From: Luscinia megarhynchos | Lineage: Eukaryota; Chordata; Aves; Passeriformes; Turdidae | Direction of reading: 5' to 3' | Length of the DNA stretch: 64,000 nucleotides | Assembly: GCA_034336665.1 (NCBI GenBank) | Contig: JAPFBE010000074.1 | Span: 62,001-126,000 of the forward strand | Shown here: piece by piece, positions 4,687-55,445 of the stretch | Layout: each line of letters starts with the position of its first letter | How positions within the stretch are numbered: position 1 is the stretch's first letter | Translations under genes and position numbers: made by a program | The notes under the pieces: generated by a model | What the model saw: only the letters and a program-made list of their open reading frames with translations | What the model was told of the DNA's origin: nothing | Database searches by the model: none

Positions 4687-6492
4687 TGTGTTGGTTTCAC
4701 GTGATAAGGGGGAGGGCTGGATTCACTTCAGGGATGGCTCCATGAGGCTGGGGAGTGGGAGGGACTCTCCAGTCTCTGGGAGCTTCCCCTGTGAGCTGCT
4801 GGCACCAATCAGAGAGCTGATTTGGTGATGGACAGCTCGGGAAACCAATTAGAGGTTGTTTAGCTTTCACAAATCACAGTGGATCGAGTTTGTTGGGGAA
4901 GTAATATCAAAATCATATGAATGCCTAGCAAGTAGTTTTGGAACAATAAATGAAATAGAGATGTTAGCAGTATTTGACATAGACACTGAAAATAGTTATG
5001 TTAAAGTTTGAGTTTTCTTCCTTTGTTTAGATAATACCAAATGCCACAAATACCAAAGAGCCAACAGACATCCTGCTTTATGTCTGTCAGGAAAAGTCTC
5101 AAGATAAGGGTTACAGATAAGAAAGCCATAAAACATGGTAATTTAGGGAATTCTATAGGTTGCATGCAAATATTAAGAAATTAGTATATTGTATTAGATT
5201 GGTTATTAAAAATTGTAATATTCATTAGCAAAAAATACTTATTGTGTTGTAAAACGAAAAATCTCTCTCCTCCTCTCCTCCTCTCCTCTCCTCTCTTCTC
5301 TTTTCCTCTTCTCCTCTCTTCTCTCCCTTGCTCTAACCTCTCTTATACTCACGTCCTATAATAAAATACTACCCTGAACAACATAATATATTAAGCTTTG
5401 AGTCTGTCCTGCGACCGTCCAATAACAAAAACCCCACAGAGTTAACTGCTCTCTTTCGGCTTGGGGCCTCTGGAGGTGCGGTGGCCTCCGGCCGGGGGCA
5501 CTAGCCCCCCAGTCTGGCTCCGGGCTCAGCAGGGGACCCGGCCCGGCACCGGCTCTGCGGGGAGCCACTGGCTTGGGGGGGCCCCCCGGCTCCGCACGGC
5601 CCCAGCACCAACCGCATGGCTCCAACACCAGCCACATGGCCCCGGCCCTGCTGGCTCGGCTCGACTCGCCTTTCCACGTGGCAGAAGAGGCCTCCAGCTG
5701 CCCACATTTGTTTCTTCGCGATCTGGATACAATTGTAACTTCTTTATGCCTGGATGGGATCCTGGATCTCCTAAGTTCCCCTGAATGAAAAGAAATGAAG
5801 CATGGAGACTACAGAAGTCAGTGGGATGAAGATAAAGTTCCTGGTGGGAAGAGATTGAAAAGATGCAAGTAGCTGAAAACCTTTTTTGTGGGCTGTGGAG
5901 ATTGTGACTTCACTAAAGTTCCTTTAAACTGTGGAAAATACATGGGGGGTTGAAATATTTGAGAAAAGGATCCTTTGCCCCAAGGGAATGGGGGTCTCTG
6001 TTCTGGAACTGGAATATGAACAGAGACATTTGATAGAGAAGACAATGAAGAGAATTTTGTTTTTTAGCAGCCTGCCTTTAGAGGTGGTGCCCCATGTTTG
6101 CATCGTAACCCATAACATGGCTCTGGAAGGACTGTGTAAATGGAAGGAAAATTCATAGTTCTGTGGGTCTCGGGCAGACACAGACTGTGAAGGTGAAGAC
6201 ATCCCCTAAGCCATAACCAGAAAAGGGACTTTTCTCTCTGAAGTGAACTGAACTGATTATTTGAGTGTATAACTGACTGAAGTATTCTCTCTGTATGTTG
6301 TTGGTAAGAAATGTGGAATGAAGGGGAGGAGGGAACAATCTAGGAATCTTATTCTGAATTCTTTTTGTATTATTAATAAATTTCTTCTTGTACCTTTTTA
6401 AGTTTTGAGCCTGCCTTGTCTCTACTCCTGGGTCCCGTCTCTAAAAGAAATTAAATATATTAAAGTTGGCAAACCCAAGTAACACCGTGACA
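4687..6492 (+). repeat. L1 solo LTR, copy 1, with L2 nested inside
   Basis: This starts TGTGTTGGTTTC and ends CCGTGACA. AATCC flanks it on both sides (4682-4686, 6493-6497), a 5-bp duplication. Without the nested L2 (4891-5438 plus its duplication) it is about 1.26 kb, matching copies at 9475-10728 (minus) and 38518-39781. It has a GC-rich centre (5455-5700) and an AATAAA near its 3' end (about 6375). No internal retroviral sequence follows, so it is a solo LTR left by LTR-LTR recombination. The short frames in the GC-rich part are not genes. Confidence 0.9.
4891..5438 (+). repeat. L2 solo LTR nested in L1 copy 1
   Basis: 548-bp LTR, TGTTGGGG...CCCACA, with GAGTT at 4886-4890 and 5439-5443. 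It carries a CT-rich microsatellite (5268-5330) and an AATAAA in CTATAATAAAATAC near 5357. The reverse-oriented relative at 33837-34405 confirms the extent. The L1 sequence reads through the target (GAGTTAAC) when L2 is removed, which shows L2 arrived later. Confidence 0.9.
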
Positions 6493-14102: not shown

Positions 14103-14742
14103 TGTCCTGGGTTAGTGTTATGACTACTCCTCTCCCTGCCACCCCCCCCGCCCCGCCACCTTTCTGTCTGCACGGAGCTGCTGCCTCCGTGGCCGTTCCT
14201 CCCCCGCCCCGGCAGGCGCCCGGCTGCTGGGCTGCTGCTGGCTTGCTGCTTTTGCTGCTGCTGCTGCTGGCCTGCTGCTGCTGCTTTTGCTGCTGCTTTT
14301 GCCGCTTTGGCTGCCACTCTTCCCCTAGCTTTTGCCCCAGCTTCTCCTGCCCCCAGCTGCTCCCTCTTTCTCTCTCCCTTCTTTCCCTCATCCTGAAAAT
14401 CTGCACCGGCTCCGGACGGAGGGATCTGAACATTAGAGACTGCCTCTGGAAGCCTGCCAAAGAAGCTTTGCACTCTTCCCAGAAGGGACTGACCGAGCTC
14501 GTCCATCCTCACTCACCTTGGTAAAAACGTTTTGTGTCATCTGGGAATTGTCCTTTCCTAGTGCTGGGAAGTGGTTTTTTTCTGTGTGTTTGTTAAAATA
14601 AACAAGTTTTTTCCACTTTTTTCCCTCGAAAAAAGTTCTTTCCAAACCCGGTAGTGGGAGGGGGAAGGAATTCTGGGGGTTTATTTTCCTAGGAAGAATC
14701 CTTTGCGAAATATTTCCCGTAAATTTGTCCAAAACCAGGACA
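14103..14742 (+). repeat. E4 5' LTR
   Basis: 640-bp LTR, TGTCCTGGG...CCAGGACA with inverted ends. It has a CTG/Leu-codon-like repeat region (14220-14310), an AATAAA (about 14598) and a 3' part close to the E8 LTRs. It shares some A-for-G changes with the 3' LTR (for example the GAAAAAAG block at 14628) but lacks most of the edits seen there. Long frames over the CTG repeats are artefacts. Confidence 0.9.
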
Positions 14743-14747
14743 AATCT

Positions 14748-14765
14748 TGGCGCTCAACATTAGGG
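14748..14765 (+). other. E4 primer binding site
   Basis: TGGCGCTCAACATTAGGG lies five bases inside the 5' LTR. E8 has TGGCGCCCAACATTAGGG at the same place. The first ten bases of the E8 site resemble a tRNA-Lys type site; the rest diverges, so the primer is uncertain. Confidence 0.6.
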
Positions 14766-14837
14766 GCACGAGGAAGTGGAAAAAACTTTATTACCTTGTA
14801 ACTGTGTATTGGTATAGATTTATAATGTTTTTTGGGA

Positions 14838-16795
14838 TGGAAGCTGGTATGTGGTTTTGAATACTAGGGTTTTTTGAGGTTTTAATACCTCTCTGGTCTC
14901 TGGGGTTATTTTCCTATCCGGAAATAGCTCCAGTAGTGTCCCTTATTTGTAGTTTTTATAATAGAGAAATAATAACCAAAATATTTATCGGACTGGGCTT
15001 AGTTGCGATGGCTTGTAAGAGGTTTATAAAGATGATGGAATCGGTTCCAGGGATATCTTCTGAATCCTGGTTATGGATATGCACTCAGTTTGTTAGAGGA
15101 GAAGAGGGGGAGGAGGCTTTTCAGCCTTTGCTTTCCTTTGTCTCCTCTGAATTTTTTACCTCTTTATTAGAAAATGTGCAGGTTTCCCTGAATACTAAAG
15201 AGATTATCTTTCTGATGTTTAATTTAGTAAGCTTTTTATACACTGTTTTCAGTTTATATAAAATGAGAGCTGAGATTTCTAGAAGGGCTGGTGTAACTCC
15301 TGATTTAGGAGCAAAGCAAAATGTGAAGAGTCCTGAATGGTGTAAAAAATGGCAGGACCTGGGCCAAATGTTAAAAGAATTTTCTGATCCTATAGTTTGG
15401 AACTTTCCACAGGAGAAAATTCAAAACCCAGCTGAGGTGGTAAAATATTTGAAAAAAAAGTGCCATGATAACCCTAAAGAAAAAAAGATCACTGCAGTGA
15501 GCTGGGCCCTGGTGTGTGCTTATCGTAGCCTTTTAGATAGTGTAGGACCACAGACAGCACACAGGGAACACGGAGATAGATTAGTTACCATCCCAGTGAC
15601 TCAGGATGTAGTAAACACTCCAGACTTGAAGACAGAGGTGAAATTAGATAATAAGCTTCAACCAATAGCCGTGGCTACTAGCACCAGAAGTGGAAAGTGC
15701 ACAAAGAAGACCGATCGGCCTGTAAATGATGATGATGAGGATGCAGGAAAATGACCCTCAACGCCTCCTGATATAAAATCAAAAGTAAAAACAACTAGTG
15801 TGAAATCAGAGACTAATAATGAGTCCCTTTCCCTAAAGGATCTTCGTGGTCTCAGGAAGGATTATACAAGATGACCCGATGAGTCCATAATTAGTTGGCT
15901 GGTCTGGCTTTGGAATGCGGCAGGCAAGGCTACCATCCTGAATGGCACTGAAGCAAGACACCTGGAATCCCTGTCACATGATCCTGTCATCAATCAGAGA
16001 ATGATGAGGGAGACTAACCCTCAAAGCCTCTGGGCACGGGTTTTAGACAGTGTGGCACAAAGATATCTGTGTGCCGATGACCTATATATGCAACAAACCT
16101 GATAGAAAACCATGGAGCAAGGGATCCAACAATTAAAGGAAATGGCAGTAGCAGAGATCATTTTTTCAGAGGATATAACAACTAGAAATCTGGACCTGGT
16201 CCCATGCACACCGGTAATGTGGAAAAAACTTGTGAGACTCGGGCCATCTGAATACGCCTCTGCCTTAGCAATAATAAACCGGGAAGAGGTACATGAGACA
16301 GTTCTTGATATGGCTAAGAAGCTTCGAGCCTATGCGAATGCTGTGCATGGCCCAACACATGCCAAAATCGCAGCCGTGAAAACACGCTTGCAGAACTTAG
16401 AGGACAAGATAAAGGAAAATCATAAGAGGCTCAGGGAGGAAATTAAAAAGGACCTCCTCCAAATTTCAGCTGTGCAAATTAGACGTCCTAGTATCTAACG
16501 CAGACATTTCCCCGATGGGGAGAGGAGGTATACTCCTCGAGCCGAGTTGTGGTTTTTCTTACAGGATTCTGGAGAGAACATGAGGAGATGGGATGGGAAG
16601 CCTACGGCTGCTCTGGCACAACAGGTGCGTGATCTAAAAAAAGGCAAGATTAAAAGAGGAAGTTCCGCCAAAATGAGAGCCGCTCCTGTTTCCCGTAGTC
16701 AAAATGCCAAACATGATAATGATAATAACATGTCTAACCCTCTTGAGAGAACTTCTAAAACCTATGCCCCGGAAAAGAAGAATAATCAGGCTTAA
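14838..16795 (+). pseudogene. gag: E4 gag
   Basis: The longest open part (14936-15754) has hydrophobic N-terminal segments, a mixed helical region and an acidic end (NDDDEDAGK). A second open part (16112-16498) holds a capsid-like helical block (LGPSEYASALAIINREEV, VHGPTHAKIAAVKTRLQ) and a coiled-coil-like LQNLEDKIKENHKRL. A basic stretch follows (16547-16795). No CCHC knuckle was seen. Stops between the parts are largely at edited codons. ERVL-type Gag would form the particle core; this copy is dead. Confidence 0.75.
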
Positions 16796-16849
16796 AGGGG
16801 CCCTGCCTCTAGCCAGGGTGAGGCGAGGGAGAACCGTGTTTTTTGGACT

Positions 16850-17038
16850 GTGTGGATTCGGTGGCCTGGCACATCAAAACCACTGAAGTATAAAGCTTTA
16901 GTGAATACAGGAGCACAGTGTACGATAATTCCATCAAGATATGTGGAGAAAGAATCCGTTTTTATTGCTGGTGTGACAAGTGAATCGCAGGAGTTTACCA
17001 TAGTAAAAGCTGAAGTGAGTTTAACTGAAAAAGAGTAG
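16850..17038 (+). pseudogene. pro: E4 protease
   Basis: The aspartic protease core reads LVNTGAQCTIIPSRY. The catalytic Asp of the usual D-T/S-G triad is Asn (AAT at 16904-16906), as expected from a G-to-A change. It stops at 17036-17038. It would have processed Gag-Pol. Confidence 0.8.
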
Positions 17039-17053
17039 AAGAAACATCTTATT

Positions 17054-18062
17054 GTGACTGGTCCAGGGGCCCCATGTATTTTGAAAATAAATTACCTCAA
17101 AAGTGAGTATTTTAAGGACCCAAAAAGACTTAAGTGGGCATTTAAAATAGCTGCTGTAATGTCAAAGCACATTCGGCAACTGAATACCTTGCCTAGACTA
17201 TCTAAAAATCCAATTACTGTAAGACTTCTGAAAAGGGAAGAGCAAAGAGTACCAATTGCCACTTCAGTAGTACATCGCCGGCAATATAGGACAACTCGAG
17301 ATGCTGTGATCCCCATCCATAAGTTGATTCGGGAGCTGGAGAGCCAAGGGGTGGTTAGCAAAACCCACTCACCCTTCAACAGCCCCATCTGGCCTGTGCA
17401 CAAGCCTGACGGAGAATGGAGACTGACTGTGGACTACCGCGCATTAAATAAAGTCACCCCACCGCTGAGCGCTGCCGTGCCGGACATGCTGGAACTCCAG
17501 TACGAGCTAGAGTCCAAGGCAGCAAGGTGGTATGCCACCATTAACATTGCCAATGCGTTTTTCTCCATTCCTTTAGCTGCAAAGTGCAGGCCTCAATTTG
17601 CTTTCACCTAGAGGGGCGTGCAGTACACCTGGAACCGACTGCCCCAGGGGTGGAAACACAGTCCCACCATCTGCAATGAGCTAATCCAGGCTGCACTAGA
17701 AAAGGGTGAGGCTCCAGAACATTTGCAGTACATCGATAACATCATTGTGTGGGGAAATACAGCAGAAAAAGTGTTTAAAAAAAAAAAAAATTATCCAAAT
17801 CCTCCCGGAATCCGGTTTTGCCATTAAAAAGAGTAAAGTTAAAAAACCTGCTCGTGAGTTCCAGTTCCTAAAAGTAATGTGGCAAAATGAAAAACGTCAA
17901 ATTCCCACTAATGTTATTAACAAAATCACAGCTATGTCTCCACCCACTAACAAAAAAAACCCCACAAGCTTTCTTAGGTGCTATAGGCTTTTAAAAAATT
18001 CACATCCCGGAGTACAGTCAGATTGTGAGCCCTCTTTACCAGGTCACTCGGAAGAAGAATGA
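17054..18062 (+). pseudogene. pol: E4 reverse transcriptase
   Basis: Fingers and palm: LIRELESQGVVSKTHSPFNS, WPVHKPDGEWRLTVDYRALN, the first catalytic block as TINIANAFF, then LPQGWKHSPTICNELI. The YxDD box reads YIDN (AAC at 17738-17740), so the second metal-binding Asp is lost by a G-to-A change. A stop at 17609-17611 and an A-run (17778-17790) with a frameshift also interrupt it. The thumb/connection part continues to about 18060. Confidence 0.88.
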
Positions 18063-18099
18063 TTTCCATTAGGGCCCTGAACAACAGCAAGCCGTCGCC

Positions 18100-19090
18100 C
18101 AAATTAAACAAAAAATCGCCCATGCAGTAGCTCTTGGCCCAGTTAGGAAGGGGCCAAATGTGAAGAATGTGCTCTACTCTGCAGCCGGGAACCACGGTTT
18201 GTCTTGGAGTCTGTGGCAGAAGGTGCCTGGTGAGACCCGAGGCCGACCCCTGGGATTTTGGAGCAGAAGTTACAGAGGATCGGAAGGCAACTATACCCCA
18301 ACAGAGAAGGAAATCTTGGCCGCCTATGAGGGAGTCCAAGCTGCTTCAGAAGTGATCGGCACAGAAGCACAACTCCTCTTGGCACCCCGAATGCCAGTGC
18401 TGAGGTAAATGTTCAGCGGAAAGGTTCCCTCCACCCACCATGCCACCAGTGCCACATAAAGCAAGTGAATTGCCCTCATCACTCAGCGCGCCCAAATTGA
18501 AAAACTCAATCGCCCCGGGATTTTAGAAATAATTACAAACTGGCCAGAAAGTGAAAAATTCAGTGTCACGGATAAAAAAGAAAAACCAGTAACCCGGGCT
18601 GAAGAAGCTCCACCATACAGCCAGCTACCGGCAGAAAAAGCACGTCAAGCTCTATTCACCAACGGTTCTTGTCGCATCGTAAAAATAAAACGGAGGTGAA
18701 AAGCAGCTGTATAAAGCCCGACACGACGGGTCGCAGAAGCCACTAAAAGAGAAGGCGAATCAAGTCAGCTTGCTAAACTTAAAGCTATTCAACTGGCCCT
18801 AAACATTGCAAAAAGAGAAAAATGGCCGAAACTCTATGTGTACACTGATTCCTAAATGGTGGCCAATGCTCTGTGAAAATGGTTATAAAAATAGAAAAAG
18901 GCGAACTGGCAGCGCAGAGAAAAACCAATTTAAGCTGCTGAAAAATGAAAAAACATCGCTACTCGGTTAAAAAAACTACCTGTAAAAGTTCGCCATGTAG
19001 ATGCCCATGTCCCCAGAAGTAGAGCAAATGAAGAGCAACAAAACAATCAGCAGGTAAATCAGGCTGCAAAAATAAGGGTGTCTAAGATAA
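18100..19090 (+). pseudogene. pol: E4 RNase H domain
   Basis: The frame 18160-18408 carries LGFWSRSYRGSEGNYTPTEKE, the start of an ERVL RNase H region. Further on, the TDS block is followed by TAA (18853-18855) where E8 has TGG (53327-53329). HVDAHVPRSRAN (about 18990-19025) is preserved as in E8. Dense G-to-A stops make it non-functional. Confidence 0.8.
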
Positions 19091-19099
19091 ATCTTGACT

Positions 19100-19925
19100 G
19101 GGAGCACAAGGGAGAGTTGTTCCTAGCACGATGGGCCCATAATGCCTCAGGCCAGCAGGGTAGAGATGCCACCTATAAGTGAGCACGAAACCGAGAAGTA
19201 AATCTTACCATGAACAGCATAACACAAGTTATTCATGACTGTGACACGTGCGCTGCCATCAAGCAGGCCAAGCAAGTGAAGCCCCTCTGGTATGGTGGAC
19301 GTTGGTCCAAGTACAAGTACGGAAAGGCTTGGCAAAATGATGACATCACACTGCCTCAAACTCGCCAGGGTAAACGTTATGTGCTGACCATAGTGAAAGC
19401 CACCACCGGCTAGTTAAAAACCTACCCTGGGTCCCATGCTACTGCTCGAAACACCATCTTAGGCCTGAAAAAGCAGGTCCTTTAGAGGCATGGTACCCCT
19501 GAAAAGATTAAGTCAGACAATAAGACTCATTTTAAAAATAACCTCTTCAACACCTGAGCTAGGAAACACGATATTAAGTGAGTGTACCACATCCCTTACC
19601 ATGCACCAGCTGCGGGTAAAGTGAAAAAATACAATAGATTGTTAAAAACCACCTTGAAAGCATTAAGTAAAGAGTCTTTTAAAAACTAAGAACAACATCT
19701 AGCAAAGGCTACTTGGTTAGTTAACACCAGAGGTTCCATCAACCGAGCAGGTCCTGCCCAGTCTAACTTCCTTAATATAGTGAATAAAAATAAAGTCCCA
19801 GTGGCCCAAGTTAAAAGTTTGTTAAAAAAGGCAGCATGAGTTAATCCTGCCTCAAGTACAAGCAAACCCATTCGTGGAATTGTCTTTGCTCAAAAACCAG
19901 AATGTACGTGGTAAGTAATGCAAAA
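19100..19925 (+). pseudogene. pol: E4 integrase
   Basis: Aligns codon by codon with E8 53590-54376. The zinc-binding His/Cys block is recognisable (DCDTCAAIKQAKQ at about 19240). The position after GKV, Gln in E8, is Lys (AAA AAA) here, which suggests an ancestral GAG (Glu) followed by editing. Several TGG codons are TAG or TAA. Integrase would insert the viral DNA; this copy cannot. Confidence 0.82.
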
Positions 19926-20137
19926 AAATAAAACAACACGATGTGTACCTCAGAGAAATCTAATTGTGAAGTAAGACAAAAAAATTAAAGTCAGTGTTAA
20001 AGGCCTAAGTAAGTAAAATGAAAAGAAACGTCTAAGTATTAAAGGTTTAAGCAAGTAAATAAAAGCTTTTACATTGTATAGTAGAGTATATATCCCAATC
20101 GTGTGTCCATGTTCACAATGTAAAATAAGGGGTGAAA

Positions 20138-20736
20138 TGTCCTGGGTTAGTGTTATGACTACTCCTCTCCCTGCCACCCCCCTCACCTCTCTGTCTGCAC
20201 GGAGCTGCTGCCGCCGTAGCCGTTCCTCCCCTGCCCCGGCGGGCCCCAGGCTGCTGCTGCTGGCCTGCTGCTGCTGCTTTTGCTGCTGCTTTTGCCGCTT
20301 TGGCTGCCACTTCTTCCCCTAGCTTTTGCCCCAGCTTCTCCTGCCTCCAGCTGCTCCCTCTTTCTTTCTCCCTTCTTTCCCTCATCCCGAAAAACTGCAC
20401 CGGCTCCGGACGGAAGGATCTAAACATCAAAAACTGCCTCTAAAAGCCTGCCAAAAAAGCTTTGCACCCTTCCCAGCAGGGACTGACCGAGGTAGTCCAT
20501 CCTCACTCACCTTGGTAAAAACGTTTTGTGTCATCTGAAAATTGTTGTTTCCTAGTGCTGAGAAGTGGTTTTTTTCTGTGTGTTTGTTAAAATAAACAAG
20601 TTTTTTCCACTTTTTTCCCTCGAAAAAAGTTCTTCCCAAACCCGGTAGTAGAAGAGGAAAGAAATTCTAAAAGTTTATTTTCCTAAAAAAACTCCTTTGC
20701 AAAATATTTCCCATAAATTTGTCCAAAACCAGAACA
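20138..20736 (+). repeat. E4 3' LTR, heavily edited
   Basis: 599-bp partner of 14103-14742. Where the 5' LTR and both E8 LTRs agree on G, this copy often has A, for instance in the block at 20409-20462 and again at 20535-20545 and 20645-20735. It is shorter than the 5' LTR mostly through loss of CTG units. Confidence 0.9.
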
Positions 20737-22990: not shown

Positions 22991-23121
22991 TTATTAAACC
23001 AGTCTTCTGATTCTTGTTTCACTTGTTAAGGCTAACAAGAAGACAACTTGGATGGGGTTCCACACAGGGTTAACTGGAGGGTAGCTTTTTCTAAAAAGAA
23101 AAACAAACATTTTAAAACATG

Positions 23122-24807
23122 TTATAAGTCTCTGTTTGAGGGTATTCCTTTTCCTTTGTGGCATCTTCTTTTTGAAGCAATGCTTACTTGCTTCTCATCT
23201 TCTTCTGCTGTAGCTGGGGTTTTAGGGAGAAAAGGTTTTACCCACTTTTGGGGAATCCATCGAGGTCCTGAGGGAGTTGAGACACATGCATAACCTCTTC
23301 CCCAGGTTACTAGCTCATAGGGACCTTTGGTTTTCCATGTTTCTGGGTCCCTAATCAAAACTGGTGGATGCTGAGATAATTTGAACTGTTTACTGCTGTT
23401 AAAATGACGAACCACTGGAGGACTCATATTTTCAAATGAACAATTTAAGAAATTGATTGTAAACAAAGCTTTACAGAGCTTTTGTTGGGGAGACATCCAC
23501 ACAGTTGAACTGCTTTGTCTGGCTAAAACTTGTTTGAGTGTCTGGTGTGTGCGCTCAATCACAGCTTGGCCTGTAGGGGAGTGTGGGATGCCTGTCTTAA
23601 GATTCACTCCCCACTGCTGGATGAATTCCAGGAACTCCTTGGATGTGTATGCTGGGCCATTGTCTGTTTTTATTTCTCTAGGGATCCTCAAAACTGAGAA
23701 GGCTTGTACTAGGTGTTGTTTTGCATGTACAGCCTTTTCCCCTGCATGAGCGGAGGCATAAACTGCACCTGAATATGTGTCTATACTCACATGGACATAT
23801 TTGAGGGGTCCAAAACTAGGAATGTGTGTGATATCTGTTTGCCACACCTCACAGCTGCCAAGGCCCCGGGGGTTAACCCCAATACCTAGCGATGGCATGG
23901 CCTGGAGCTGGCAGCTGGGACAGGTGGCTACTATAGCCCTGGCCTGACTCCGTGTTAGCTGGAACTGACGGACAAAACCTGGTACATTCTGGTGGCTCAG
24001 CTTTGCCTGTTGGAAGATGTCAGGAAGGCATGCCTTTTCTGCTGGAGCTGCAAGGGTGTCTGCCATACGGTTCCCTTCTGTGATCTCACCTGGCAAATCC
24101 ATGTGTGACCTCACATGCATTACATAGAAGGGATGTTCTCTGTGCGAAACCAAATAGATTAGTTTGGACAGCAGCCTAAAGAGATGCTCATTATCAATGT
24201 CTTTGAGCACTGCCTGCTCCGCTCTGGACACTACCCCAGCAACATAAGCCGAATCTGTTACCAGGTTAAGAGGCTCTGAGAACTTTTCGAAGGCCCTCAC
24301 AACTGCAGCCAGTTCTGCAATCTGGGGTGACCCCTTCACAAACTCAACATCAGCTTCCCAATGCTGAGTCTGGGGATTTCTCCAAGTCATCACCGACTTA
24401 TGGGAGGCCCCCGATGCATCTGTGAACACTGTGAATGCCTCGAGCGGTCTCCTGCTCCTCCTTTCACGAGGTATGAGGTGAAATTCCTCATTGAACAACT
24501 TATGAGCTGGGCTGTGAACAGATATCTGTCCACTGTAGCTGTCCAGAGATATCTGGAGGCTGGCATTGCTCTGCAGCAAATGCTCAAACATCTCTTTTGT
24601 TAACCTTTCAGGAGAATTCTTTCCCTCCCCAGAAAGTTTAACTGGCAGGTGTATGCATGTGAAATCAGACCCAGACAGCTCACGCAGCCTCATCCTTGCT
24701 TTTTGAATCAGCTGAGCCATCAGCTCCTGAGGTTGTGTAATAGTTTTGGATCTTTGGTGGGAGAGGAAGACCCATTCTATGATTAAGAGTGAGTCTCTGC
24801 CCCTCAA
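23122..24807 (-). pseudogene. pol: E5 pol: RNase H and integrase
   Basis: Open minus-strand frame. RNase H carries its acidic residues in FTDASGASHK, IAELAAVV, LVTDSAYVAG and GNRMADTLAA. Integrase follows with the zinc site (LSHQNVP, then ATCPSCQ) and the core acids in WQTDITH, KTDNGPAYTS and GQAVIERTHQ, i.e. an intact D,D,E set. The frame differs from the RT frame by a 2-nt deletion near 24808 compared with E7, where RT and RNase H are in one frame. Without that shift this pol would be complete. Confidence 0.9.
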
Positions 24808-25819
24808 TCCACTGGAATATTAAACCATGTAAGTGTGGCAGTTTCCCTAAAACAATAAATTTGAAAGGCAGTTCAGGGTGATAGCGGTGTGCCTGCCTTT
24901 CAGACAGAGCTTTCTGTACCTTTTCAATTGCAGCTTTTGCCTCAGATGTCAGTTCCCTAGCAGAAACCAGCTCTCTCTCCCCTTTCAATAAATTGAAAAG
25001 GGGTTCTAAGTCCTCATTAGTGAGACCTAACCAAGGTCTTACCCAATTCAGAGATCCACACAGGGAGTGGAGATCTGCTAAAGTTTTAGGATTGCAATTA
25101 ATTTCTAATTTCTGTGGAACAATGGTCCTGGCAGTGATCTCTAGGCCCAGATACTTCCAAGGTGGCATCCTTTGAACCTTGTCATCCTGTAATTGAAATC
25201 CAGCAGAGGTTAAAACTTTAACTACTAGGTCAAGCGTGTCTTGGAGGGTGGAGTTATCAGGAGCACACACCAGCACATCATCGATGTAATGCAAAATTAT
25301 TGCTTCCTTTCTCTGTGCCCGCACCGGAGACAACAATGAAGCTACATACCACTGGCAGATAGCAGGACTACACTTCATGCCCTGTGGAAGCACTTTCCAG
25401 TGGTATCTCTTCATTGGAGCCTCTCTGTTCAATGATGGTACTGAGAATGCAAACCTGGGAGCATCTTCAGGGTGTAATGGGATATGGAAAAAACAATCTT
25501 TGATATCTATAACTGCCAATTGCCAATCTCTAGGTAACATAGTTGGAGAAGGCATCCCAGGTTGAGGAGATCCCATGTCTTGAATTACTTTATTTATTCC
25601 CCTAAGATCATGTAATAATCTCCATTTGTCTGTTTTTGGTTTTTTTATTGCAAAAATTGGAGAATTCCAGGGGCTTGTTGTTTCTACTATATGACCTCTT
25701 GCCAATTGTTCATCCACAAGTTTTTGAAGTGCCTGTAACTTTTCCTTTCTTAACGGCCACTGTGTAGTCCAGATAGGTGTGTCACTTAGCCATGTCAGCT
25801 TCTGGACCCGGCACTCCAC
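24680..25819 (-). pseudogene. pol: E5 pol: reverse transcriptase
   Basis: Frame entered by -1 shift from protease. Motifs in order: [68 protein letters not shown] and HYIDDVLV (both catalytic Asp present). The last 40 residues before the stop at 24680 are out of frame with RNase H because of the 2-nt deletion. It would copy the RNA genome into DNA. Confidence 0.92.
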
Positions 25820-25830
25820 GGTGGCCGCTT

Positions 25831-26684
25831 CTAAAAATCCTGGGGAGTTTTTGGAATTATCATTTTAACTCCCCATTGTGACATGGAATCTCTTCCCCAT
25901 AGGGGACACTTATAATCTATTACAAACGGACGAACACTGGCCAATTTGCCGTCCGGTCCCTCAATTTGTACAATGCGTTTTGATATTTGCGCTAATTTAA
26001 CACCCCCTATACCCTGAATTTGCCCTGCAACAGGTTGCAATTCCCAATGTGAAGGCCACATCTTTTCAGGTATTATGGTTACATCAGAACCTGTATCCAA
26101 AACACCCTTCACATGTAGATGGTCTGTTCCATGTGTCATGTTGCATGCTAGAGAAGGCTTTTCCTCCTTCACTGTCTCTGCCCAGTAAACCTCTGGTGAT
26201 TTATTATCTGCTGTGATATTTGCTGGAATAGGAAAAGCTTGGGCCAGTACTTGCCCCTCACCCAAATAGAAAGGTGCTTGTGGACAACGAGCTAATATGA
26301 TAACACCAGATATTTTCCCCTTAATGATCATAGGAGCTATTTCAATTTCTGAAGGTGTGTGTGCTGTGTCTCCCACAACAAAATACTCACTCTCCATGTG
26401 GCAAACCGTCATATCAATTAAAGGACTTGAGATGTCCACTGTAATGATGGTCCACTCAGCAGATCTGAAATGAAAACCTTTGGTAGTTTGTAGCCTAATA
26501 CGGCCACAGAACTGCCTGACTTTGTTAGGAGAACATTTAACATTTGCATTATCTGTTATACCCACATTGTCCATCCCATGCTCCCCCCTTGCCTTTAAGA
26601 GAGAGGCTTTTGCTACAGTATAGCCTGCAGAATTTATATCCTGGCACGCTATGGTGTTTAATACAGGCCCGCGCCTCAGTTCTA
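25831..26684 (-). CDS. pro: E5 dUTPase-like/protease, open
   Basis: Expressed in the -1 frame from gag at 26685-26691. The N-terminal part (FRSAEWTIITV, GEGQVLAQAFPIP) has the outline of a retroviral dUTPase fold without its catalytic motifs. The protease carries VLDTGSDVTIIP (active-site DTG), then GIGGVKL and PLWGRDSMSQW. It ends GAT TTT TAG at the pro-pol slip site. The frame is uninterrupted. The first ATG (26574) is internal and not the true start. Confidence 0.85.
25834..25840 (-). promoter_or_regulatory. E5 pro-pol -1 frameshift site
   Basis: The minus strand reads G GAT TTT directly before TAG, in phase with protease. Shifting -1 opens the pol frame. MMTV uses the near-identical GGATTTA at this junction. 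Confidence 0.75.
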
Positions 26685-28391
26685 GTTTTTTTGTTTGCTG
26701 ATTTTGTTCTGTTTCCTGCTTTGAGGACAGTCCCTAGCAAAATGTCCTTGCTGCTGACACTGGAAACAGGTGATCTTCTTCAGCTGCTGCGATGATAACT
26801 GCGGCTTTTTCATCCGTGGTGGATCAGGTCCCGGAGGCTCAGGAGGTGTTGGACTTGTGATCCTCTCTGGAACACTGAACAATTCTGCTATTCGGGTGCA
26901 GGCTTCAATCATCTGTGCTAGCGTTGGTTCTGGGTACAGGGGCAGGCTTAGAATGACTCTGCGACAGGCGTCATTGGCGTTTTTCTCTGCTAATTCCTTA
27001 ATCAGTTCTGCCTGCATGGCTGGATTCTGTACCTGGCGTTCCACCTGTGTCTTCAAACGATCTATAAAGCTCAAAAAATTCTCAGAAGGATATTGTTTAA
27101 TATTTACATAACTAGAAGTTACTTCAACAGTTGGCAATTTGATAAAAGCCTGTTCAGCTACCTCACAAACCTTATCCAAAATAAATTTAGACAATAACCG
27201 AGTTTGCTTTTCTGGGCAATGTATTTCCCCCTCCCCACATAAATGATCTAATGTAATTTCATTATTCTCAGAATCTTTGGAATGTTCAGGGTTTTTGTGA
27301 AGCTCTGTTAAAAGACTGCTTAAAGAACGTTTCCAAACATTAAACCATAATTCATATTCAGCAGGGGTTAGCAAACACCTGAAAAGGTCTTTTAAATCAT
27401 GTGGAACTAGTTCATTTGATGTAAAAGTTGCTCTCATCATTCCCTTAAATATGGCACTTTGCCTTCCAAACTCCCTTTGTACCTTGCAAATTTCTTTTTT
27501 ATCTTGGTATGGTAGTGGTTGGTAGCTTCTTTTACCGTTCCTTTTACCTAAATAAACAACTGGTGCTGCTTCAAAAACCTGGTGAGATTCAGGGTTAGTC
27601 AGTGAGTTAGGGGTTAATTGTTTCTGTGCCTCTGCGGATGGTGTCTGTGTACTTGAGACACGTGCTTCCCCTCCCCCTCCCTCTGCGGCTGCACTCCCGG
27701 GGCTCCCATTGTTCTGTGTCCCGGTGTTAGAAAAAGCGTTAGAAAGCGGTATAGCTTGGAAAGATGGGTTACAATAACCAGGAAGGTATAGAGCAGAAAC
27801 TGGAGGTGGATGCAGGAACAGATTATTGGAAGAAAAAGGCATAGTATTAGAATTTACTACAGGTTTTTCCCCTTGCACTAGAGAAGGGCGATTTTCTAAA
27901 CTAGGTTGCTGAGAGGGCAATAGCGACAGAGGAGGATACAATGGTAAGTTTGTAGCAAATTGTTCAGGAGATTCGAATTCTGTGTATTTTGGAGGAACAT
28001 TAGTATTAGTAGTTTCTGGAGATATGTCTAATTTCTCTTTTAATTCAGGGACAGGAGGTTTCGAATTAGGTAAAGAGGGTTGTAAAGAATTTTCCTGTGG
28101 TTGATTTTTGTTCTCCAATTGTGATAATTGTTTGTGAATATTTAAAAATATAGGCAAAAATAAAGCAACAGTGGTATCGCCTTTCTGTATTTTAGAAGTT
28201 AATAAATCTCCGACACTGTCCCAAAATAAAATAGATTTGATATTTTGCTTTTCAAATTCCATAACTTCTCGATACAACCACCTAACAAACTTTCTAATTT
28301 GTTTCTTAGAAATTACAACATGCTGTGCATCTAACATTTCTTTAAGCTGAGAAATAATACTCTTTTGTTGTGCTGAAACATTCGCCCCCAT
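26682..28391 (-). CDS. gag: E5 gag, open, 569 codons
   Basis: Starts MGANVSAQQKS with Gly2 for myristoylation. Residues 1-100 are a matrix domain, 100-300 a Pro/Ser/Gln-rich linker, and about 310-470 the capsid (YQDKKEICKVQREFGRQ, NELVPHDLKDLFRCLLTP). The homology region follows around YVNIKQYPSENFLSFIDRLK. One zinc knuckle, CFQCQQQGHFARDC, lies near the C terminus. The protein ends QKN just before the stop, inside the frameshift heptamer. E7 and E9 are diverged copies. Gag builds the particle and packages RNA. Confidence 0.92.
   Translation of the reverse strand: MGANVSAQQKSIISQLKEMLDAQHVVISKKQIRKFVRWLYREVMEFEKQNIKSILFWDSVGDLLTSKIQKGDTTVALFLPIFLNIHKQLSQLENKNQPQENSLQPSLPNSKPPVPELKEKLDISPETTNTNVPPKYTEFESPEQFATNLPLYPPLSLLPSQQPSLENRPSLVQGEKPVVNSNTMPFSSNNLFLHPPPVSALYLPGYCNPSFQAIPLSNAFSNTGTQNNGSPGSAAAEGGGGEARVSSTQTPSAEAQKQLTPNSLTNPESHQVFEAAPVVYLGKRNGKRSYQPLPYQDKKEICKVQREFGRQSAIFKGMMRATFTSNELVPHDLKDLFRCLLTPAEYELWFNVWKRSLSSLLTELHKNPEHSKDSENNEITLDHLCGEGEIHCPEKQTRLLSKFILDKVCEVAEQAFIKLPTVEVTSSYVNIKQYPSENFLSFIDRLKTQVERQVQNPAMQAELIKELAEKNANDACRRVILSLPLYPEPTLAQMIEACTRIAELFSVPERITSPTPPEPPGPDPPRMKKPQLSSQQLKKITCFQCQQQGHFARDCPQSRKQNKISKQKN
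26685..26691 (-). promoter_or_regulatory. E5 gag-pro -1 frameshift site
   Basis: A AAA AAC in phase, immediately before the gag TAG. The -1 frame leads directly into the open protease frame. The same heptamer serves gag-pro in MMTV. Confidence 0.8.
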
Positions 28392-28989
28392 TTCGATGTT
28401 ATAAAAACAAAATGCACGATTCCCTGTCTTTTACAGAAAAGTTACACAATAGCAGTCCGTTTGCAAAACCCAGGTGGGGGTGCTGGGCTTTATTACTACA
28501 CGTGGTTGCCGGTAATGGCCACACAAGGCGGTCCCGGGGGAATCCCACTTCAGGGAAAGCTCCGGTGCCCGTGCGTACGCCAATGCCGCAACACACGCCA
28601 GGCAGAGCCGGCTGAGCACGTGTACTGCCGGGCGGGATTGCGACACCGCCCACGCGCTCCCGCTCCACGCTGGGACTGCCGCCACTGCTCACCAGTGGGG
28701 TACCAACCTCCCCCCACGAGTCTGAGCTAATCCGCCCGAAAAACCCCCTCCCCTGTCCCTCGGGGTTACCGTGGGGTTACCTTTCTCAGACGGAGCGCAT
28801 TCTCGCCAGTAACTCTGCAAAAGTTCCGATCCACACACGGCTGCTTTGAGTCCACGAAGAAGTTGCCCATCTCACCCTCCGGCGTTCGGGGCTGGTAAAC
28901 AGCTCCAACCACGGAGGTAGTTGATCAACCTAACCGGCCTTTAAAGTCCTAAAACTGGGACTTCAGGCAAAATGGGGTCTAAAATTAAG
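28392..28989 (-). other. E5 leader
   Basis: About 600 bp of GC-rich sequence between PBS and gag start, expected to hold packaging signals and the splice donor. Short frames in it carry no domain. Confidence 0.6.
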
Positions 28990-29007
28990 CCCCACGGTCG
29001 GGTGCCA
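28990..29007 (-). other. E5 primer binding site
   Basis: Minus strand TGGCACCCGACCGTGGGG, two bases inside the 5' LTR. E7 has TGGTGCCCAACGCGGGGC in the same place. The tRNA is not assigned with confidence. Confidence 0.7.
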
Positions 29008-29009
29008 AC

Positions 29010-29388
29010 TGCTAAAACGATGCTTTGTCTTTTCCTAATTACTTAAGATAAGACAATGTATCTTTTAGCATGGATGGAAAAGGATTACAAAAGAGGCTCT
29101 TCCTTATGTCAGCTTTATTCTATGGCGATGGCGTGGCCCGATGGAGAAAGAGGAAAGAGGAAGATCCCTCCTGGGACCTCCGTCTTCAGGAGAGGGAATG
29201 GGGAGTGGATTTGGCTAGCAGCCAATGAGATAAGGACACAGGGGGATAGGGTCAGGATACAGGAACTCCCGGTAGGGTGCAATGTCACAGGGAAAGGTCA
29301 CAGGAAGGGGGACATGAACCGGGAGCTAGCCGGAAGATGGCCAGGTTTGTTGGTTCATTCCTTATATCTCATTTATTGAATTACAACA
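29010..29388 (-). repeat. E5 5' LTR
   Basis: 379-bp partner of 22325-22704. CCTCAG follows at 29389-29394. Confidence 0.93.
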
Positions 29389-29394
29389 CCTCAG

Positions 29395-51970: not shown

Positions 51971-52578
51971 TGTCCTGGGTTAGTGTTATGACTACTCCTC
52001 TCCCTGTCCCCCCACCCCTGTCTGCACAGAGCTGTTGCCGCCCTGGCCGTTCCTCCCCCGCCCCGGCGGGCCACCGGCTGCTGGGCTGCTGCTGCCTGCT
52101 GCTTTGGCTGCTGCTGCTGGCCTGCTGCTGCTGCTTTTGCTGCTGCTTTTGCCGCCTTGGCTGCAGCTTCTACCCCTAGCTTTTGCCCCAGCTTCTCCTG
52201 CCCCCAGCTGCTCTCTCTTTCTCTCTCCCTTCTTCCCCTCATCCCGAAGATCTGCACCGGCTCCGGACGGAGGGATCTGAACATCAGAGACTGCCTCTGG
52301 AAGCCTGCCAAAGAAGCTTTGCACCCTTCCCAGCAGGGACTGACCGAGCTCGTCCATCCTCACTCACCTTGGTGAAAACGTTTTGTGTCATCTGGGGATT
52401 GTTCTATCCTGGTGCTGGGAAGTGTTTGTTAAAATAAACAAGTTTTTTCCACTTTTTTCCCTCGGAGGAAGTTCTTCCCGAATCCGGTAGTGGGAGGGGG
52501 AAGGAGTTCTGGGGGTTTATTTTCCTAGGGGGACTCCTTTGCGAGATATCTCCCGTACATTTGTCCTAAACCAGGACA
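51971..52578 (+). repeat. E8 5' LTR
   Basis: 608 bp, TGTCCTGGG...CCAGGACA. Same family as E4. AATAAA about 52433. CTG-repeat region 52078-52160. PBS TGGCGCCCAACATTAGGG at 52584-52601. Confidence 0.93.
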
Positions 52579-52660
52579 AATCTTGGCGCCCAACATTAGG
52601 GGCACGAGGAAGTTGAAAAAACTTTATTACCTTGTAACTGTGTATTGGTATAGATCTATA

Positions 52661-54376
52661 ATGTTTTTTGGGATGGAAGCTGATATGTGGTTTTGGATAC
52701 TAGGGTTTTTTGAGGTTTTAGTACCTCTCTGGTCTCTGGGGTTATTTTCCTATCCAGAAATAGCTCCAGTACTGTCCCTTATTTGTAGTTTTTATACTAG
52801 AGGGATAATGACCAAAATATTTATCGGACTGGGCTTGGTTGCGATGGCTTGTAAGAGGTTTATAAAGATGCTGGAATCGGTTCCAGGGATATCTTCTGGA
52901 TCCTGGTTATGCATATGCACTCAGTTTGTTAGAGGAGAAGAGGGGGAGGAGGCTTTTCAGCCTTTGCTTTCCTTTGTCTCCTCTGAATTTTTTACATCTT
53001 TATTAGAAAATGTGCAGGTTTCCCTGAATACTAAAGAGATTATCTTTCTGATGTTTAATTTAGTAAGCCTTTTATACACTGTTTACAGTTTATATAAAAT
53101 GAGAGCTGAGATTTCTAGAGGGGCTGGTGTAACTCCTGATTTAGGTGCAAAGCAAAATGTGAAGAGTCCTGAATGGTGTGGGAAATGGCTAGACCTGGGC
53201 CAAATGTTAAAGGAATTTTCTGATCCTATAGTTTGGGACTTTCCACAGGAGAAAATTCAAAACCCAGCTGAGGTGGTAAAATATTTGAAAGAGAAATGGC
53301 CGAAACCCTATGTGTACACTGATTCCTGGATGGTGGCCAATGCTCTGTGGGGATGGTTGAAGAAATGGAAAGAGGCGAACGGGCAGTGCAGAGGAAAACC
53401 AATTTGGGCTGCTGAAGTATGGAAAAACATCGCTACTCGGTTAGAGAAACTACCTGTGAAAGTTCGCCATGTAGATGCCCATGTCCCCAGAAGTAGAGCC
53501 AATGAAGAGCAGAAAAACAATCAGCAGGTAGATCAGGCTGCAAAGATAGGGGTGTCTAAGATAGATCTTGACTGGGAGCACAAGGGAGAGTTGTTCCTAG
53601 CACGATGGGCCCATGACGCCTCAGGCCACCAGGGTAGAGATGCCACCTATAAGTGGGCACGAGACCGAGGGGTGGATCTTACCATGGACAGCATTACACA
53701 AGTTATTCATGACTGTGACACCTGCGCTGCCATCAAGCAGGCCAAGCGAGTGAAGCCCCTCTGGTATGGTGGACGTTGGTCCAAGTACAAGTACGGGGAG
53801 GCTTGGCAGATTGATTACATCACACTGCCTCAGACTCGCCAGGGTAAACGTTATGTGCTGACCATGGTGGAAGCCACCACCGGCTGGTTGGAGACCTACC
53901 CTGTGTCCCATGCTACTGCCCGCAACACCATCTTGGGCCTGGAAAAGCAGGTCCTTTGGAGGCATGGTACCCCTGAGAGAATTGAGTCAGACAATGGGAC
54001 TCATTTTAAAAATAACCTCGTCAACACCTGGGCTAGGGAACACGGTATTGAGTGGGTGTACCACATCCCTTACCATGCACCAGCTGCGGGTAAAGTGCAG
54101 AGGTACGATGGATTGCTGAAGACCACCTTAAAAGCATTGGGTGGAGGGTCTTTTAAAAACTGGGAACAACATCTAGCAAAGGCTACTTGGTTAGTTAACA
54201 CCAGAGGTTCCATCAACCGAGCAGGTCCTGCCCAGTCTGACTCCCTTAATATAGTGGATGGAGATAAAGTCCCAGTGGCCCAAGTTAAAGGTTTGTTAGG
54301 AAAGGCAGTATGGGTTAATCCTGCCTCGAGTACAGGCAAACCCATTCGTGGGATTGTCTTTGTACGTGGTGGGTAA
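52661..54376 (+). CDS. E8 fused gag-RNase H-integrase ORF, 571 codons
   Basis: First ATG 52661 (MFFGMEADMWFW); the frame is also open upstream to the PBS. Residues 1-211 are the hydrophobic-start N-terminal ERVL gag, as in E4 14838-15450. From about residue 212 (WPKPYVYTDSWMVANALWG) it is the second half of RNase H, followed by integrase with its zinc site (HDCDTC) and core (WQIDYITL, IESDNGTHF). The third core acid, 35 residues after the second Asp, is Gln (GKVQRY). The junction lies at GAGAAATGGCC (53291-53301); similar AGARAAATG is present at both parental places in E4, so a microhomology-mediated deletion is likely. Polymerase and protease are absent. Integrase activity is doubtful because of the Gln. 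Confidence 0.88.
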   Translation: MFFGMEADMWFWILGFFEVLVPLWSLGLFSYPEIAPVLSLICSFYTRGIMTKIFIGLGLVAMACKRFIKMLESVPGISSGSWLCICTQFVRGEEGEEAFQPLLSFVSSEFFTSLLENVQVSLNTKEIIFLMFNLVSLLYTVYSLYKMRAEISRGAGVTPDLGAKQNVKSPEWCGKWLDLGQMLKEFSDPIVWDFPQEKIQNPAEVVKYLKEKWPKPYVYTDSWMVANALWGWLKKWKEANGQCRGKPIWAAEVWKNIATRLEKLPVKVRHVDAHVPRSRANEEQKNNQQVDQAAKIGVSKIDLDWEHKGELFLARWAHDASGHQGRDATYKWARDRGVDLTMDSITQVIHDCDTCAAIKQAKRVKPLWYGGRWSKYKYGEAWQIDYITLPQTRQGKRYVLTMVEATTGWLETYPVSHATARNTILGLEKQVLWRHGTPERIESDNGTHFKNNLVNTWAREHGIEWVYHIPYHAPAAGKVQRYDGLLKTTLKALGGGSFKNWEQHLAKATWLVNTRGSINRAGPAQSDSLNIVDGDKVPVAQVKGLLGKAVWVNPASSTGKPIRGIVFVRGG

Positions 54377-54595
54377 TGCAGAAAGATGGAACAACACGAT
54401 GTGTACCTCAGGGAGATCTGATTGTGGGGTGAGACAGAAGGAATAACGTAAGTGTTGAAGGCCTGAGTAAGTAAAATGAGAGGAAACGTGTAAGTGTTGA
54501 AGGTTTGAGCAAGTAGATGAAAGCTTTTACATTGTATAGTGGTGTATATATCCCAATCGTGTGTCAATGTTCACGATGTGGGATAAGGGGTGGAA
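54377..54595 (+). other. E8 3' untranslated tail and polypurine tract
   Basis: 220 bp between the ORF and the LTR, without env. GGGATAAGGGGTGGAA (54580-54595) next to the LTR is the polypurine tract; E4 has the edited form at 20122-20137. Confidence 0.75.
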
Positions 54596-55207
54596 TGTCC
54601 TGGGTCAGTGTTATGACTACTCCTCTCCCTGCCCCCCCCACCCCTGTCTGCACAGAGCTTCTGCCGCCGTGGCCGTTCCTCCCCCGCCCCGGCGGGCCCC
54701 CGGCTGCTGGGCTGCTGCTGCCTGATGCTTTGGCTGCTGCTGCTGCTGGCCTGCTGCTGCTGCTTTTGCCGCTGCTTTTGCCGCCTTGGCTGCAGCTTCT
54801 ATCCCTAGCTTTTGCCCCAGCTTCTCCTGCCCCCAGCTGCTCCCTCTTTCTCTCTCCCTTCTTCCCCTCATCCCGAAGATCTGCACCGGCTCCGGACGGA
54901 GGGATCTGAACATCAGAGACTGCCTCTGGAAGCCTGCCAAAGAAGCTTTGCACCCTTCCCAGCAGGGACTGACCGAGCCCCTCCATCCTCACTCACCTTG
55001 GTGAAAACGTTTTGTGTCATCTGGGGATTGTTCTTTCCTGGTGCTGGGAAGTGTTTGTTAAAATAAACAAGTTTTTTCCACTTTTTTCCCTCGGAGGAAG
55101 TTCTTCCCGAATCCGGTAGTGGGAGGGGGAAGGAGTTCTGGGGGTTTATTTTCCTAGGGGGACTCCTTTGCGAGATATCTCCCGTAAATTTGTCCAAAAC
55201 CAGGACA
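54596..55207 (+). repeat. E8 3' LTR
   Basis: 612-bp partner of 51971-52578, with one extra CTG unit and about 16 substitutions. Followed by CATGC. Confidence 0.93.
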
Positions 55208-55445
55208 CATGCGGACACAGGCAGGCGTGCCCGGCGGCGGCGTCCGCAGCGGTGGCCCCGGACGGCGTGCGTGTGCAGCGGTGCCACCGCAGCAGGCGCA
55301 GTAGCGGCGGAGAGAAGGGGAGAAAAAGAGGCGAGAGAAAGCTTCCTGGCTGCATACGCTAGATAAAACAACAAATAACCACCACTTTTTTCTGTGTTTT
55401 TGCTCTGAATTAAGGTAGATAAAGAGCAGATTGCTTTAAAGCAAC

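Follow-up and report, generated by a model that had tools for sequence, protein, structure and literature searches.

A graded, one-way G-to-A imprint on the songbird provirus E4 appears to record the copying order of its DNA strands

The provirus E4, bounded by two LTRs at 14103-20736 of the window (the whole stretch of 64,000 nucleotides analysed here), carries more than 300 one-directional G-to-A scars, which confirms an earlier note on this DNA and exceeds what it had reported. The changes lie on the coding strand, are absent from 15 little-edited relatives, occur almost only at G followed by a purine (GR) and are graded along the element. Very probably a cytidine deaminase attacked the E4 cDNA in the reverse-transcription event that produced this provirus, and the scars still appear to record the copying order of the DNA strands. 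Deamination of minus-strand cDNA, as the earlier note had suggested, is supported by the strand bias, the context, the gradient, a drop in U3 and edits confined to the 3' LTR, and is the only explanation tried that covers all five jointly.

Compared singly with three related copies, the whole of E4 shows 328-337 G>A changes against 16-20 A>G and 35-38 C>T, where 335 G>A over 6555 aligned positions correspond to ∼51 per kb. The earlier note had described one-way change relative to the copy E8 over about 900 bp of RNase H/integrase. From E8 to E4, the 1306 columns of this region contain 111 G>A, but only 2 A>G, 5 C>T, 2 T>C and 20 transversions. The direction was thus borne out, while the extent had been understated, as the whole element is affected. 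The quoted examples are correct: CCTGGATGG and TGTGGGGATGG are found in E8 at 53325 and 53346 and TGTGAAAATGG in E4 at 18872, while CCTAAATGG was read directly close to 18852 in E4. CCTGGATGG was also found at 5749, and about one chance occurrence of it is expected. Polarising the region by the 15 little-edited copies (those showing at most three A>G against E4) gave 109.8 G>A, 0.3 A>G and 2.6 C>T. Over the whole element, C>T is not equal to G>A but about one tenth of it, nor do most family members share the A residues of E4, since the 15 copies have G at these sites. Among 19 repeat pairs of the window (at least 250 columns, E4 excluded) no comparable one-way excess was observed; the strongest G>A:A>G skews were 13:37 (1-603, 69% identity), 13:4 and 15:5 (613-901 and 4066-4355, 72-73%) and 4:12 (4890-5440, 84%).

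Table 1. Features of E4 and its relative E8, in window positions; GR values are edited sites
Feature	Position	Strand	Remarks
E4 5' LTR	14103..14742	+	light editing, GR 11/72 against copy L032
E4 leader	14743..15200	+	GR 6/71 (8%), minimum of internal editing
E4 gag to reverse transcriptase	15201..18200	+	GR editing climbs unevenly from 17% to 39%
E4 RNase H/integrase to 3' LTR border	18201..20137	+	GR editing rises from 26% to 67%
Putative polypurine tract (plus-strand DNA primer)	20125..20137	+	purine-rich run
E4 3' LTR	20138..20736	+	
U3 part of E4 3' LTR	20138..20415	+	almost unedited, GR 2/19
End of U3 and R, E4 3' LTR	20416..20615	+	GR 6/14, next 6/9
U5 of E4 3' LTR	20616..20736	+	GR 20/28 (71%), peak of editing, mostly 3'-LTR-only
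E8	51971..55210	+	relative with an internal deletion, also in the window; slight editing, polarised G>A 3.2

E4 is probably an endogenous retrovirus (ERV) of the ERV3/ERVL type, the label ERVL being taken over from the earlier note. Pfam matches comprise RVT_1, in an open reading frame piece at 17054-17611, and rve, with Integrase_H2C2 and RNase_H under their cut-offs. The gag assignment follows from position alone, the RNase H/integrase domains were placed via the little-edited relative L032, the polypurine tract by eye and by the fall in editing, and the R/U5 border by eye. An AATAAA at 20591 in the 3' LTR was likewise read by eye. Between 18816 and 20137, 14-15 of the 22-24 codons that specify Trp in the reference copy are stops in E4. 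The 4 bp CTAC stands on either flank of E4, while an exact target-site duplication of 5 bp, the length found for ERV3 (PMC6523648), accompanies 10 of 18 genome copies whose LTR ends we set ourselves (L019, L028, L039, L032, L016, L010, L017, L008, L025, L007). The LTR pair of E8 shows neither G>A nor A>G differences.

The proposed rise in density from 5' to 3' was borne out by a rank test on 903-913 GR sites (p about 1e-18). It leads from 8% of GR sites past the 5' LTR to 67% ahead of the 3' LTR, but is interrupted by a sharp fall where U3 begins (0/10), from where editing climbs again up to 71% in U5. The difference between the U3 part (2/19) and the sequence immediately upstream (29/43) is significant (Fisher p 6e-5). 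In 11 of 11 copies the rank AUC exceeds 0.5, with p<0.05 in nine against the reference L032 and in eight against L028; for L002 and L008 neither reference gave a significant gradient and for L027 only one did, and in L017 and L030 editing dips at about 3500-4500 of the element. Along the 3' LTR, the trinucleotide-corrected ratio of observed to expected GR edits, pooled over 11 copies, is 0.08, 0.37, 0.75 and 0.82. In E4 as well as in the pooled copies, density tracks single-strand exposure, as in a hypermutated provirus. The E4 row lacks bin 4000-4500 in the rank AUC and the pooled profile, and also in the per-copy G>A totals and the heterogeneity and hazard-ratio tests given below; L019 was kept out of the profile references because its 5' part contains a divergent segment.

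Both GG and GA contexts are struck, as had been claimed. In RNase H/integrase of E4, 59/101 GA and 49/122 GG sites are edited, compared to 1/63 GC and 3/93 GT, hence 108/223 GR vs 4/156 GY, the neighbour preference of a hypermutated provirus. GR lies well above GY in the remaining heavily edited copies too, and in 15 pooled copies standalone GG edits amount to 325/1377 vs 54/2297 at GY. With respect to the preceding base, E4 is least edited where G follows C (0.11), which does not hold for every copy.

E4 is not exceptional among its relatives, since 19 of 39 sequences, taken from a ranking by similarity to an edited query, are edited. In the RNase H/integrase set, which omits L015 and L029 (coverage <80%), L001 being E4 itself, three copies (L012, L002, L010) are edited more heavily than E4; L012 is changed at 99/101 GA and 105/117 GG sites, and over its 4876 aligned bases carries 660 G>A, about 135 per kb. 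Edited copies carry changes at their own sites, and E4 has about as many sites in common with each of 12 other edited copies as chance would give once context is allowed for (z -1.0 to 2.7). Descent from an edited master copy is accordingly unsupported, the highest overlaps being those of L003 (z 2.7) and L005 (z 2.3).

That two editors of differing context marked different copies is unlikely, although two APOBEC1-like loci are present and L022 and L024 are nearly GA-only in RNase H/integrase (heterogeneity p 0.002, 19 copies). The standalone measure over the whole element also differs between copies (p 5e-9, 11 copies), but it conditions on an unedited neighbour and would therefore shift with the editing level. 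Over the whole element GG edits do exist in both copies (22/530 in L022, 33/533 in L024), and the unconditioned GA:GG hazard ratio of 1.3 to 2.6 showed no significant heterogeneity (p 0.13 and 0.23; 13 copies, two references), which leaves the two-editor idea unsupported.

The two LTRs of E4 share 10 GR edits, while 23 are found in the 3' LTR only and 1 in the 5' LTR only; comparing the 5' with the 3' LTR gives 26 G>A and 1 A>G. Over 11 edited copies, the LTR GR edits comprise 63 3'-only, 9 5'-only and 87 shared; the corresponding numbers for 9 little-edited copies are 6, 3 and 3. The 3'-only edits are not universal, as E4, L002, L008 and L017 account for 54 of the 63, and none were seen in L010, L007 and L009 in the 11-copy comparison. 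The 5'-only GR edits include four in L007 and two in L022 (against one 3'-only), and L017 has 3-4 5'-only changes at GY too. Pairs from L023 (3' end misplaced), L012 (5' LTR truncated), and L030 and L031 (search found no 5' LTR) were left out. One might ask whether the asymmetry is a conversion artefact, with an unedited copy having overwritten the 5' LTR and leader, which apart from the start of U3 are indeed the least edited parts of E4. We regard this as very unlikely: the 5' LTR has 11 G>A (all contexts) in common with the 3' LTR and one of its own, editing climbs in many steps with no single border, and the 3'-only edits accumulate toward the LTR end in L002, L017 and L008 as well.

In deamination of minus-strand cDNA, the enzyme would have converted C to U at TC and CC while that strand was single-stranded, and synthesis of the plus strand would have fixed each U as A. 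The gradient would be set by the exposure time of the minus strand. Next to the polypurine tract this strand is synthesised early but is the last to be copied, and would therefore be edited most, while the neighbouring U3 is copied at once and would be spared. The 5' LTR was presumably templated by plus-strand strong-stop DNA predating the later edits. Upon displacement, the minus-strand 3' LTR would be single-stranded again, U5 for longest, and further edits on it would survive in the 3' LTR only. The pattern fits two deamination episodes, the second on the displaced 3'-LTR strand.

The earlier note had considered a deaminase of AID/APOBEC1 type. Genome searches with APOBEC_N and APOBEC1 gave five and four matches, all in four loci, namely an APOBEC2-like gene, AID and two APOBEC1-like genes (L063, L064) whose exons adjoin AID; genome-wide, no APOBEC3 candidate was seen among the matches to these two models. 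Both L063 and L064 have the HxE and PCxxC of the APOBEC1 zinc site. The best solved-structure match of L063 is APOBEC-1 (6x91, E 4.2e-33), and its APOBEC_N match crosses one TGA, perhaps beyond the exon end; L064 matches A3G (2.6e-19) and A1 (6.6e-18). The APOBEC1 model is the best Pfam match of neither, L063 scoring 159.9 bits with APOBEC4_like and 154.6 with APOBEC1, and L064, whose class is uncertain, 119.1 with SNAD4, 107.2 with APOBEC4_like, 97.6 with NAD1, 79.9 with APOBEC2 and 77.5 with APOBEC1.

AID prefers WRC, which reads GYW on the plus strand. The GA/GG preference of the plus strand is TC and CC on the minus strand, not WRC. There is only a slight chance that AID was the editor instead; an AID exon lies within the cluster (L062, best solved-structure matches AID, E 7.6e-37 and 7.8e-35), but GYW sites are nearly unedited in E4 with 4/86 (GTA 2/27, GTT 1/21, GCA 1/22, GCT 0/16), against 58% of GA and 40% of GG. 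Since AID is disfavoured by context, the APOBEC1-like genes remain the best candidates, and one or both of the encoded proteins are likely to be the editor of E4. With somewhat less assurance, we propose that the APOBEC1-like enzymes of this lineage do the antiretroviral work of mammalian APOBEC3, in two episodes that would give saw-tooth editing that climbs as far as the polypurine tract, falls, and climbs a second time over the displaced 3' LTR to U5.

Imbalance of dNTPs is an older account of G>A hypermutation, in which reverse-transcriptase error under dCTP shortage requires no enzyme. It would produce one-way G>A, with GA favoured by slippage, but is highly improbable here, given that standalone GG edits are common and the U3 drop is left unexplained. 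Misinsertion into the minus strand should moreover reach both LTRs, whereas the 23 to 1 asymmetry of E4 suggests a minus-strand lesion after templating of the 5' LTR, and the asymmetry at GR over 11 copies already points the same way. Slow mutation of the integrated provirus, by CpG decay or otherwise, has next to no probability, for although E4 is old enough for some (3.2% LTR divergence without G/A changes), the strand asymmetry of the G>A and C>T counts already refutes it, G after C is edited least in E4, and L008 carries 284 G>A at a non-G/A LTR divergence of 0.17%.

Editing also affects dating. LTR divergence with G/A changes included is 7.7% for E4 and 1.7% for L008, so raw LTR dating of edited elements is off by as much as tenfold, as in L008; it overstates age, and raw-distance ERV ages therefore need correction where editing occurs. 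Since the non-G/A LTR divergence of nine edited copies spans about 0.2% to 4.3%, editing was no single burst. The scars let one read, from sequence alone, how long the strand regions of a dead retrovirus were exposed relative to one another.

Edited avian LTR elements had already been reported (PMC6523648; PMC12548423), as the earlier note stated, and so had edits confined to the 3' LTR in mouse (2025); E4 is an unusually clear new case, for which two candidate editors can be named. Zebra finch has ultra-edited copies of ERVL and ERVK (Knisbacher and Levanon 2016, as cited in PMC6523648), and E4 is likewise a songbird LTR element with dense one-way G>A. Its density falls inside the range of Table 3 of PMC12548423, where zebra finch TguERVL1_I has 392 G>A (71.5 per kb). 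L012 exceeds all densities listed there, including the 120.8 of Mtv21, but is not strictly comparable because it lacks the greater part of the 5' end, where E4 is less edited. Lizard APOBEC1 is described as a DNA mutator, with edited anole retroelements and an A1 homologue noted in zebra finch (PMC3880073); L063 and L064, known here from sequence alone, are less clear in Pfam class. Endogenous MLV shows a 5'-to-3' G>A gradient from primer site to polypurine tract (PMC2041998) and HIV-1 twin gradients (Suspene 2006, as cited in PMC2041998). E4 resembles both in its rise from primer site to polypurine tract, but has a single internal rise and a separate one within the 3' LTR, while the MLV analysis spanned the region between these two landmarks. 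In endogenous mouse mammary tumour viruses (Mtv), some edits are common to the two LTRs and additional G>A changes occur in the 3' LTR, and one MLV with four 3'-LTR-only G>A changes is mentioned as well (PMC12548423). That case, as described there, involves APOBEC3 and four Mtvs, and just two of the 3'-only sites lay outside U3. E4 belongs to another ERV class, in a genome where the APOBEC_N and APOBEC1 searches showed no APOBEC3 candidate, and its 3'-only edits rise gradually and are concentrated in U5. E4 provides an apparently non-mammalian example of late-displacement editing, which was put forward in 2025 for mouse Mtv.

The G-to-A editing of the provirus E4 is real and well explained, and represents a strikingly clear case of a known phenomenon. 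The earlier note had deduced a one-way change from comparison with E8, an internally deleted, little-edited relative, and the counts bear this out: from E8 to E4, RNase H/integrase shows 111 G>A versus 2 A>G, 5 C>T and 2 T>C. Another 39 copies were fetched from the genome assembly (1.09 Gb, 1235 contigs), 37 of which cover RNase H/integrase, as does E8, and 105 pairs from 15 little-edited copies (at most three A>G versus E4) served for polarisation. Over ∼1288 sites of this region, the polarised changes of E4 amount to 109.8 G>A, 0.3 A>G, 2.6 C>T, 2.3 T>C and 15.1 transversions. Compared with three single copies, the whole of E4 carries 335, 337 and 328 G>A, 20, 16 and 18 A>G, 38, 35 and 35 C>T, and 29, 25 and 33 T>C, respectively, C>T on the same strand thus being far rarer than G>A. 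A one-way excess comparable to that of E4 was absent from 19 other repeat pairs of the window that served as control. Due to the editing, 14-15 of the 22-24 Trp codons of the reference in RNase H/integrase are read as stops in E4 and none in E8, in a frame that itself contains 4 to 14 stops in the reference copies.

An exact 5-bp duplication, the length given for ERV3/ERVL (PMC6523648), flanks 10 of 18 other genome copies; the flanks of E4 itself are listed in the table. In Pfam searches one ORF piece of E4 matched RVT_1, while those of the little-edited relative L032/L046 matched both RVT_1 and rve and, slightly under the cut-offs, also RNase_H and Integrase_H2C2. A related integrase fragment with ∼67-69% identity to E4 and E8 lies at 1-603 of the window. 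Another ERV (41147-48516), whose LTRs are 99.5% identical and differ by neither G>A nor A>G, is young, and its interior differs from 23033-29390, the sole interior comparison, by balanced substitutions.

Features of the provirus and deaminase-like loci of the genome
Feature	Position	Strand	Basis
Provirus E4, two LTRs	14103-20736	+	Sequence comparison within window
E4 5' LTR	14103-14742	+	CTAC flanking E4 on both sides
E4 3' LTR	20138-20736	+	CTAC flanking E4 on both sides
APOBEC2-like locus	C29		Pfam, 188 bits
AID exon	C2		Solved-structure matches, E 7.6e-37 and 7.8e-35
L063, L064, diverged APOBEC1-like exons	G000:C2:84.89-84.91 Mb	-	APOBEC_N/APOBEC1 search

As proposed earlier, both GA and GG are edited in RNase H/integrase of E4 (59/101 and 49/122 sites), versus GC 1/63 and GT 3/93; the corresponding values for copy L012 are 99/101, 105/117, 1/63 and 13/92. 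The GG edits are not merely sequels of adjacent edits, since 325/1377 occurred with the following G kept, versus 54/2297 for G before C or T. The pooled trinucleotide order of 12 copies is GAA, GGA, GAT, GAG, GAC, GGT, GGG, GGC. While the GA:GG hazard ratio (∼1.7) showed no significant heterogeneity over 13 copies, a GA/GG measure conditioned on neighbours was heterogeneous. On the minus strand the preference for GA and GG equals TC > CC, with AC and GC nearly ignored. AID has WRC as its hotspot, and such sites are almost untouched in E4. Of the suggested AID/APOBEC1-type editor, it is therefore the APOBEC1 part that finds support, in two APOBEC1-like exons next to AID. When the genome was searched with APOBEC_N and APOBEC1, matches fell at only four loci (Table), of which the AID exon, L063 (∼10 kb from it) and L064 (∼20 kb) span at most 21 kb. 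Among solved structures L063 matches APOBEC-1 6x91 best (E 4.2e-33; next 9.5e-23), with APOBEC4_like marginally above APOBEC1 in Pfam. The class of L064 is uncertain, because A3G (2.6e-19) and A1 (6.6e-18) structures match about equally and SNAD4 is best in Pfam. Both exons keep the zinc-site motif. Lizard APOBEC1 is described as a DNA mutator, with an A1 homologue in zebra finch (PMC3880073). Judged from sequence, an A1-like enzyme would be the best, if unproven, candidate editor of E4.

Among 39 sequences (E4, E8 and 37 others), 19 carry at least 11.7 polarised G>A and the remaining 20 at most 6.6, a proportion that is no family census, since the copies come from a list sorted by similarity to E4. 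L012 (213), L002 (142) and L010 (122) exceed E4 (110). Edited sites common to E4 and each of 12 others are about as frequent as chance predicts given context (z -1.0 to 2.7), so these copies look edited independently of E4. Without G/A changes the LTR distance drops from 7.7% to 3.2% in E4 and from 1.7% to 0.17% in L008; as this value is low in the heavily edited L008 and L002 (0.67%), editing was recently active.

Relative to L032, editing of G before A or G (GR) in E4 is 8% in the leader and then 17, 20, 17, 29, 20, 39, 26, 40, 41, 57 and 67%, the last bin being the final 237 bases upstream of the 3' LTR. The 5' to 3' rise claimed earlier thus holds for the interior (p ∼1e-18; GA and GG sites each show it separately), but is interrupted at the 3' LTR border, where GR editing drops from 29/43 to 2/19 (p 6e-5). 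Across the 3' LTR it rises again (0/10, 2/9, 6/14, 6/9, 20/28). The AUC of the interior rise exceeded 0.5 in all 11 edited copies, with p<0.05 in 9 versus L032 and 8 versus L028, a second reference. Pooled, trinucleotide-corrected observed/expected values across the 3' LTR, from U3 to U5, are 0.08, 0.37, 0.75 and 0.82. A mid-element fall to the 5'-end level was not seen in the E4 GR profile. In copies L017 and L030, GR editing dips at element positions ∼3500-4500, possible causes being additional priming of the plus strand, a switch of template or mere chance.

From the 5' to the 3' LTR of E4 we counted 26 G>A, 1 A>G, 5 C>T and 5 T>C. Compared with the LTRs of six little-edited copies, 11 G>A are shared (10 at GR), 24 are 3'-only (23) and 1 is 5'-only (1). 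The 11 edited copies with both LTRs hold 87 shared, 63 3'-only and 9 5'-only GR edits, versus 3, 6 and 3 in nine little-edited copies; E4, L002, L008 and L017 supply 54 of the 63, and L010, L009 and L007, unexpectedly, have none. The shared edits suggest that both LTRs derive from one cDNA. The 3'-only edits would need a minus-strand lesion after templating of the 5' LTR. If the 3' LTR minus strand were displaced, its U5 side would be exposed first and reached last by plus-strand synthesis, which fits the rise towards U5. Contrary to this model, the LTR pair of L007 (L059, L007) has four 5'-only GR edits, at LTR positions 542 and 574-576.

Edited LTR elements in birds, as the earlier note stated, are on record, with strong APOBEC-type editing in zebra finch (Knisbacher and Levanon 2016, cited in PMC6523648 and PMC12548423). 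L012 (G000:C33:1064686-1068589, together with L051) carries 660 G>A over 4876 aligned bases (∼135 per kb), a higher density than any value tabulated for comparison in PMC12548423. An editing gradient in ERVs is on record for MLV (PMC2041998). Asymmetric LTRs of HIV are described as mainly 3'-LTR deletions, and one HIV provirus has a transition and three transversions confined to the 3' LTR (PMC9278108). Searches of an open-licence library brought up no description of 3'-LTR-only G>A beyond mouse, or of an increase of such edits towards U5. The 3'-LTR-only G>A itself, as seen in E4 and some of its relatives, is reported for mouse Mtv, where displacement of the 3' LTR minus strand was offered as explanation (PMC12548423).
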